Positions 29,702 to 30,464 of a stretch of DNA of 64,000 nt are shown in pieces (position 1 is the stretch's first letter; each line of letters opens with the position of its first letter). The stretch comes from Dehalococcoides mccartyi CG5 (GTDB taxonomy: Bacteria > Chloroflexota > Dehalococcoidia > Dehalococcoidales > Dehalococcoidaceae). The translations under genes were made by a program, and so were the position numbers. The notes beneath the pieces are model-generated. The model saw only the letters and a list, made by a program, of their open reading frames with translations, was not told where the DNA came from and ran no database searches. Location of the stretch: NCBI RefSeq assembly GCF_000830885.1, contig NZ_CP006951.1, positions 992,001 through 1,056,000 of the forward strand, read 5' to 3'.

Positions 29702-30205
29702 ATGAAAACCAAAACCCTGAGCCTTATCCTGAGCCTGATATGCCTTTTCACTCTGATTACCGGATGTGACGGTATAGGACTGGAGGATATCCACCTGAAT
29801 CTGGGGGGTGATGATTCCAATACCGATGATACTACCCAAGAGATTAGATGCCAGCTGACACTTCAAACCAGAGTAGTCACAGTAACAGGGGCTTATGTTT
29901 ACCCTGTTATGGTTATATTCATGACAGATGTGCTGGATGCCGGCGGCAGCAATGTATATTTCCATGACCGCCAGATTAAGTATACAGACTCCAAGGGTTA
30001 TATCAGCTTCACCGCACCCTCATTCAACCTGCCACCGGACAGATATGCGATAATTACAGTCTATGTTCAACAGGGAGATGAAGAAGGCTTTACAGCAACT
30101 ACTGCGTCCATGTCATTCACATATGCTGAAATTTCCCAACATGGCACTTTGCGCAGCGGCGGCCTGATTACCTATGCCAAGTTCATGACAGTCATAAAGG
30201 GGTAA
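29702..30205 (+). CDS. small lipoprotein
   Basis: A 167-residue exported lipoprotein: charged start MKTKTLSL, hydrophobic core and lipobox LITGC, so Cys is about residue 21. An acidic linker (DDSNTDDTTQE) leads to a beta-rich domain, perhaps Ig- or carboxypeptidase-regulatory-like. A frame beginning 66 bases upstream was rejected since the signal peptide starts here. No close family recognised. Confidence 0.78.
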   Translation: MKTKTLSLILSLICLFTLITGCDGIGLEDIHLNLGGDDSNTDDTTQEIRCQLTLQTRVVTVTGAYVYPVMVIFMTDVLDAGGSNVYFHDRQIKYTDSKGYISFTAPSFNLPPDRYAIITVYVQQGDEEGFTATTASMSFTYAEISQHGTLRSGGLITYAKFMTVIKG

Positions 30206-30214
30206 CACCAGTCT

Positions 30215-30429
30215 AAAACAAAAAAAGAGGTCTTCACACCTCTTTAAAATATATGCTGGTCCTGCCGCTAGCCCGATTACGCTCAGGGCTCCGCCCACGG
30301 GAGGGGACCTGGATGATAATTAAGCCGTTCGGCGCCTCAACCGACAGCACCCTGATTTCCCCCGGCAGGACCAACCACGTATATCAATTTTTAAACTTTC
30401 AGGGGATTTAAGCTACCCTGAATCAAGAT
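30215..30429 (-). ncRNA. candidate structured non-coding RNA of unknown family
   Basis: A transcript of about 215 bases can be drawn on the minus strand, from a start near 30429 to a T run at 30220. Its core is closed by an 11-base perfect helix, TGGTCCTGCCG (plus-strand 30257-30267) with CGGCAGGACCA (30363-30373), extended by AT pairs. Inside, TCAGGG/CCCTGA, AGCCC/GGGCT and a CGG..GAGG/CCTC..CCG helix can form; the 5' leader adds TTCAGGG/CCCTGAA and TATCAAT/ATTGATA. It lacks the SRP tetraloop domain, tmRNA ends and RNase P motifs. Size and rod shape are 6S-like, but no match is claimed. Confidence 0.55.
30224..30245 (-). terminator. terminator of the candidate RNA
   Basis: AAAGAGGT (30224-30231) pairs with ACCTCTTT (30238-30245). 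On the minus strand seven T follow; on the plus strand the tail is TTTAAAA. The orientation therefore favours a minus-strand transcript. Confidence 0.8.
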
Positions 30430-30435
30430 TGATAA

Positions 30436-30464
30436 ATTATGACAGAATTATTCTGTTTTGGCAA
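30436..30464 (-). promoter_or_regulatory. promoter of the candidate RNA
   Basis: On the minus strand TTGCCA (30464-30459), 17 bases, CATAAT (30441-30436). An 8-base inverted repeat overlaps the -35 box. Confidence 0.55.

Follow-up and report, generated by a model that had tools for sequence, protein, structure and literature searches.

Riboswitches of the ZTP class (pfl, RF01750) are organized around a pseudoknot in which a helix-bounded internal loop pairs with a hairpin loop farther downstream. Free-standing riboswitch-type RNAs that act in trans are also known, namely EutX/Rli55 and SreA. Dehalococcoides and Dehalogenimonas detoxify chlorinated solvents, and little is known about how their respiratory operons are controlled. 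The rdhA motif (WRC-34-1) is presented as a weak riboswitch candidate of Dehalococcoides that lies immediately upstream of rdhA (PMC11109978).

The RNA family described here has a member in a 64,000-nucleotide stretch of the Dehalococcoides mccartyi CG5 genome (the window, to which coordinates refer unless a contig or locus is named). It has the pseudoknot arrangement of the ZTP riboswitch and, like it, is found in the leaders of transport and metabolic genes and in tandem copies, but it has an extra 13-bp closing helix, other conserved bases, and other target genes, and RF01750 went unmatched when the window and about 20 diverse relatives were scanned with Rfam. Its size class is that of 6S RNA (RF00013), and the window copy is likewise predicted to be free-standing, with its own promoter and terminator; 6S RNA, however, is a rod with a central bubble, whereas the new family is pseudoknotted and its members are mostly gene leaders. 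EutX/Rli55 and SreA offer a further parallel, in that the window copy is predicted from sequence to place a putative sensing core on a small RNA independent of a target gene. With the rdhA motif, the family shares its standing as a structured RNA candidate in Dehalococcoides and a link to reductive dehalogenases, but gene context sets the two apart: both Dehalococcoides copies of the new family lie elsewhere, neither of them upstream of rdhA (PMC11109978).

On the minus strand, the window copy forms a putative transcription unit. The initial annotation had proposed a TTGCCA-17-CATAAT promoter, and this held up well. The site at 30436 to 30464 (−35 TTGCCA at 30464-30459, 17-nt spacer, −10 CATAAT at 30441-30436) has 10 of 12 consensus matches, is the strongest of five promoter-like sites in the region (0.7 expected), and is kept in two sister species, that is, in three Dehalococcoides species; it is presumably active. 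Transcription would start at about 30429, and the 5′ part of the transcript (30377 to 30429) has a local hairpin predicted by folding. Next comes the 122-nt core (30255 to 30376), which matched our covariance model R1 at 125 bits (E = 6.4e-27), the core itself being among the sequences used to build that model. The T-tailed intrinsic terminator, also recognized at the outset, occupies 30214 to 30245, with an 8-bp stem at 30245-30224; a terminator scan found one site versus 0.7 expected, which is not significant alone, and the element is conserved in the three species.

The resulting transcript would be about 210 nt long. Promoter, core (119 of 120 positions identical), and terminator are all retained in the three Dehalococcoides species, whereas the 5′ flank is divergent and the sister species do not keep the hairpin predicted within the first 60 nt of the transcript. 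A promoter-to-terminator unit of about 215 bases, as originally described, is thus present, but the functional unit is the 122-nt core. Beyond the terminator, the minus strand holds no gene before the convergent plus-strand gene, which ends at 30205; the early remark that there is no downstream gene to regulate is right for this copy but wrong for the family, most members of which are gene leaders. Equipped with a promoter and a terminator of its own and lacking a target gene, the window copy is predicted to be, in Dehalococcoides, a free-standing small RNA with the family's core. The minus-strand folding energy was −83.6 kcal/mol (z = −3.55), and 0 of 200 shuffles were equally low. Owing to the palindromic helices, folding of the plus strand is likewise strong (z = −5.26); a plus-strand RNA was rejected, since the promoter, the terminator tail, and the gene orientation of relatives all fit the minus strand.

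In the minus-strand fold, helix P1 encloses P2, the 5′ strand of P3, the P4 hairpin, the 3′ strand of P2, and the P5 hairpin, in that order. P1 is a GC-rich, perfect closing helix of 13 bp (5′ strand, 30363 to 30375; 3′ strand, 30255 to 30267), all 13 pairs of which covary, with covariation in both alignments. It contains the 11 perfect pairs reported initially, but the AT pairs said to extend them are not conserved in the sister species. P2 joins GGGG (30359 to 30362) to CCCC (30303 to 30306) and covaries in both alignments. P3 pairs UCAGGG (30350 to 30355) with a covarying CCCUGA (30283 to 30288) and is a pseudoknot because its 3′ strand sits in the P5 loop; five of its six pairs covary in alignment A4. 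P4 (30324 to 30348) is a hairpin of variable length in which all eight counted pairs covary. P5 (30272 to 30301) is made up of CCCG/CGGG and two covarying inner pairs (30293-30294 with 30281-30282) that swap freely among C-G, G-C, G-U, and A-U/U-A. The conserved unpaired stretches are AAA after P2, UUAA after P4, and GUG opposite GUAAU in the internal loop of P5. Internal helices, as first claimed, are present, and P2, P4, and P5 are supported by covariation; the P3 pseudoknot had been missed. An HDV-like nested pseudoknot was rejected because P5 encloses the P3 strand.

R1 was built from 23 aligned copies (alignment A2), in which 93.9% of cells were paired, versus 82.3% in shuffles, and 29 of 37 pairs changed on both sides, versus 12.6 in shuffles. 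In 68 further matches, largely independent but aligned to R1, which favors P1, P2, P4, and P5, 91.8% of cells were paired (75.4% in shuffles), 34 of 37 pairs had double changes (26 in shuffles), and double-change cells numbered 386 (114 in shuffles). Covariation in P3 is an independent test because P3 is absent from the R1 search model; its variants include CCAGGG/CCCUGG, CUGAGG/CCUCAG, UCAGAG/CUCUGA, and UCAAGG/CCUUGA, among others. At the level of comparative sequence analysis, these changes demonstrate that the core is a real structured RNA whose fold is under selection.

Scanned with Rfam 15, the window and about 20 diverse relatives gave no gathering-score or credible subthreshold match over the core, and the only subthreshold match, to mir-186 on the plus strand (E = 3.5), was attributed to chance. 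The scan of the window returned one tRNA only and no tmRNA, RNase P, or known riboswitch, in agreement with the initial annotation, which could fit none of these. A cobalamin riboswitch, suggested by GGGAA...CCC words, was discarded after no model match was obtained. The likeness to a 6S-type rod has to be given up: RF00013 had no match in the whole genome at an E limit of 10, while control genomes did match, the fold is a compact pseudoknot of P1 to P5 rather than a long rod opened by a large central bubble, and gene leaders make up most of the copies. A literature search, whose coverage did not extend to supplements, found no paper on the core RNA. Two of the checks proposed with the original candidate thus strongly favor a new structured RNA, in that relatives with covariation exist and the Rfam scans gave no match over the core.

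A DNA search of 101 related genomes found conservation reaching past the genus only for 30255 to 30376, which recurs in 25 genomes, often in multiple copies. Of 156 Dehalococcoidales genomes searched with R1, 62 contain the RNA, with as many as 15 copies each among the matches listed. R1 also detected it in 27 of 393 genomes sampled from the class; 400 genomes sampled from the phylum gave no R1 match outside the class. A second covariance model from a more diverse set (R2) found it in 30 of the 393 class genomes and gave one marginal match outside the class (E = 6.6e-4, 1 of 400 genomes), which we take to be chance. Altogether, 146 distinct Dehalococcoidia copies were gathered. A pattern scan of 84,980 species genomes returned 49 stretches, with titles naming Dehalococcoidia, Dehalococcoidales, or Chloroflexota except for two metagenome bins, one titled Deltaproteobacteria and the other a Syntrophaceae contig. 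Two viral contigs contain the RNA in a recombination region (L226:5364-5480, minus strand; L227:1729-1850, plus strand), the latter copy being separated by 15 nt from a preceding RecT gene and by 21 nt from a following DUF5131 (radical-SAM-like) gene. A BLAST search of phage and plasmid records gave no match. As far as searched, the family is confined to the class Dehalococcoidia and to phages carrying the RNA. The Syntrophaceae contig (L212, filed as Syntrophaceae UBA7544) has the RNA ahead of a Dehalococcoidia-style solute-binding protein, suggesting either transfer or mis-binning.

Gene context was counted for the 112 distinct copies that have a gene no more than 800 nt away on each side. 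In co-directional gaps, on which the orientation test rests, 58 copies share the orientation of the genes and 4 oppose it (p = 2.6e-13, with related copies not fully independent). Divergent gaps (34 copies; median distance, 102 nt from the downstream and 360 nt from the upstream gene) are uninformative on orientation, and the 16 copies in convergent gaps occupy sites at which no 5′ leader would be expected. The RNA clearly lies in the transcribed direction of its neighbors, with most copies about 100 nt upstream of a co-directional gene that is typically the first of an operon. Some copies lie 2 to 40 nt after the preceding gene and are probably intercistronic.

The downstream genes encode family 5 solute-binding proteins (26), class II B12-dependent ribonucleotide reductases (10), peptide-type permeases (8), TRAP DctP proteins (8), molybdenum hydroxylase [2Fe-2S] subunits (6), and radical SAM proteins (5), with molybdate permease, ModA-type proteins, reductive dehalogenases, MttB, a corrinoid protein, and others occurring more rarely. 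ABC and TRAP transporters are thus among the targets, and no single pathway is common to all. One Dehalogenimonas locus (L062) has the order RNA, nrdJ, DUF2795 gene, reductive-dehalogenase-like gene, and gene for an 89-aa membrane protein; another (L061) has RNA, rdhA, RNA, nrdJ. In L118, a series of consecutive TRAP operons has four copies, each at an operon head or end, and tandem arrays of two or three copies, with the middle or outer copy degenerate, precede a single transporter gene at L080:2199-2706 (minus strand) and L117:524-805. We also observed that L061, L062, L064, L065, and other Dehalogenimonas loci have several class II B12-dependent ribonucleotide reductase paralogs per genome, which adjoin reductive dehalogenases and small DUF2795 proteins.

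Many copies have a strong Shine-Dalgarno sequence 1 to 20 nt behind P1, in some cases followed by a very short open reading frame (ORF), and terminators behind P1 are rare. Shine-Dalgarno matches of at least 8 nt within 24 nt behind P1 occurred in 12 of 145 copies, versus 0.3 in shuffles, an enrichment that is concentrated in few genomes and comes partly from related paralogs. The D. mccartyi CG5 genome has only two copies, 77% identical to each other. The second (G000:C1:856135-856254, equal to L099:2636-2755, minus strand) has a two-component response regulator on one side and, on the other, a micro-ORF (MSALGLWLILVALILSIG...) that three species conserve; this micro-ORF starts 22 nt farther on, encodes 26 to 28 aa with a single membrane span, and is followed by a terminator. 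Orthologs of this locus, taken as the L099 copy and the 110 nt that follow it, are found in L098 and L028. In the micro-ORF, 30 of 49 differences fall at third codon positions; it is probably an unannotated small protein. The Shine-Dalgarno sites and this micro-ORF favor translation control as the likely mode, without proving it.

The candidate RNA is genuine, and with its relatives it makes up a new RNA family of about 150 sampled members; its function we assign with moderate confidence. Because these copies usually stand just ahead of transport and energy-metabolism genes, the family is probably an unrecognized gene switch. We postulate, with a probability of about 0.5, that it is a riboswitch-like, pseudoknotted cis-regulatory class of which the Dehalococcoides window copy is a free-standing member. 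The core in a leader would fold around a ligand or signal and thereby alter expression of the next gene. Control at translation initiation appears likelier than attenuation, because ribosome-binding sites lie so close behind P1 in many copies and terminators are rare. The mix of target genes is so wide that what is sensed may be a cofactor or a general metabolic signal instead of a single substrate; molybdenum cofactor, cobamide, iron, and peptide each fit some targets and fail on others, and we claim none of them. The window small RNA, with the same sensing core, could perhaps act in trans as a decoy that captures the ligand or a protein partner. Against the leader reading stand the targets without a common pathway, the 16 copies in convergent gaps, the intercistronic copies, and the window copy without a cis target.

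More tentatively, we speculate that a new riboswitch class for a general signal or cofactor may, across Dehalococcoidia, place respiration (operons for reductive dehalogenases and B12-dependent ribonucleotide reductase), substrate uptake, and molybdenum-enzyme operons under joint control, being carried by phages and, in Dehalococcoides, acting in trans as a free-standing small RNA. A widespread RNA class heading rdh-associated, transport, and molybdo-enzyme operons would be a testable layer of control. Its pseudoknotted core, heavy covariation, and lack of an Rfam entry make it a strong candidate for a new riboswitch or ribozyme class, and the near-identical standalone copy raises the question of whether a riboswitch-type core can act in trans.

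The alternative that survives best, although we consider it rather unlikely, is that the core binds a Dehalococcoidia protein, such as a translational repressor or antiterminator, with the leaders as its targets and the standalone RNA titrating it, as CsrB-type RNAs titrate their protein. The conserved free-standing copy, the unrelated target genes, and the intercistronic positions would all suit such a role, but most protein sites are simpler than an RNA of about 120 nt that has a pseudoknot and many invariant unpaired bases, many Dehalococcoidales genomes lack the family, and no candidate protein was found. Improbable is a self-cleaving ribozyme that separates or processes transcripts between genes or in untranslated regions; its compact pseudoknotted core and conserved unpaired bases, the intercistronic copies, and the phage copy between recT and the DUF5131 gene could be so explained. 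The known self-cleaving ribozyme families in Rfam, however, gave no match in the window or about 20 diverse relatives, and sites upstream of metabolic operons are strongly preferred; tandem arrangement, or a promoter and terminator of its own as in the window copy, would be atypical. There is very little chance that the RNA is a trans-acting housekeeping small RNA such as 6S, with the leader copies secondary: the unit of about 210 nt with its own promoter and terminator and a near-identical core in three species resembles one, but the 6S model finds nothing in the genome, the fold is unlike the 6S rod, and up to 15 copies per genome, among the matches listed, lie upstream of genes. A dispersed repeat or mobile palindrome (REP/MITE type) without a regulatory role, which the many and sometimes locally duplicated copies of some genomes might suggest, can be practically dismissed given copies within a genome that are old and diverged (77% identity between the two here, versus 119 of 120 positions in the orthologous core), double substitutions in every helix, and the 58-to-4 orientation with genes.

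Two variations on the common plan may be mentioned for the family. At four loci (L127, L130, L131, and L118), near full-length complements of the 16S rRNA 3′ end (TAAGGAGGTGAT) come immediately after P1 and are followed by ORFs of 1 to 16 codons, well upstream of the main gene start. A subgroup of copies (L097, L096, L087, L152, and similar ones) has CUCUGCC / GGCAUCCC in P1, with a conserved mismatch region, and is possibly a subtype.
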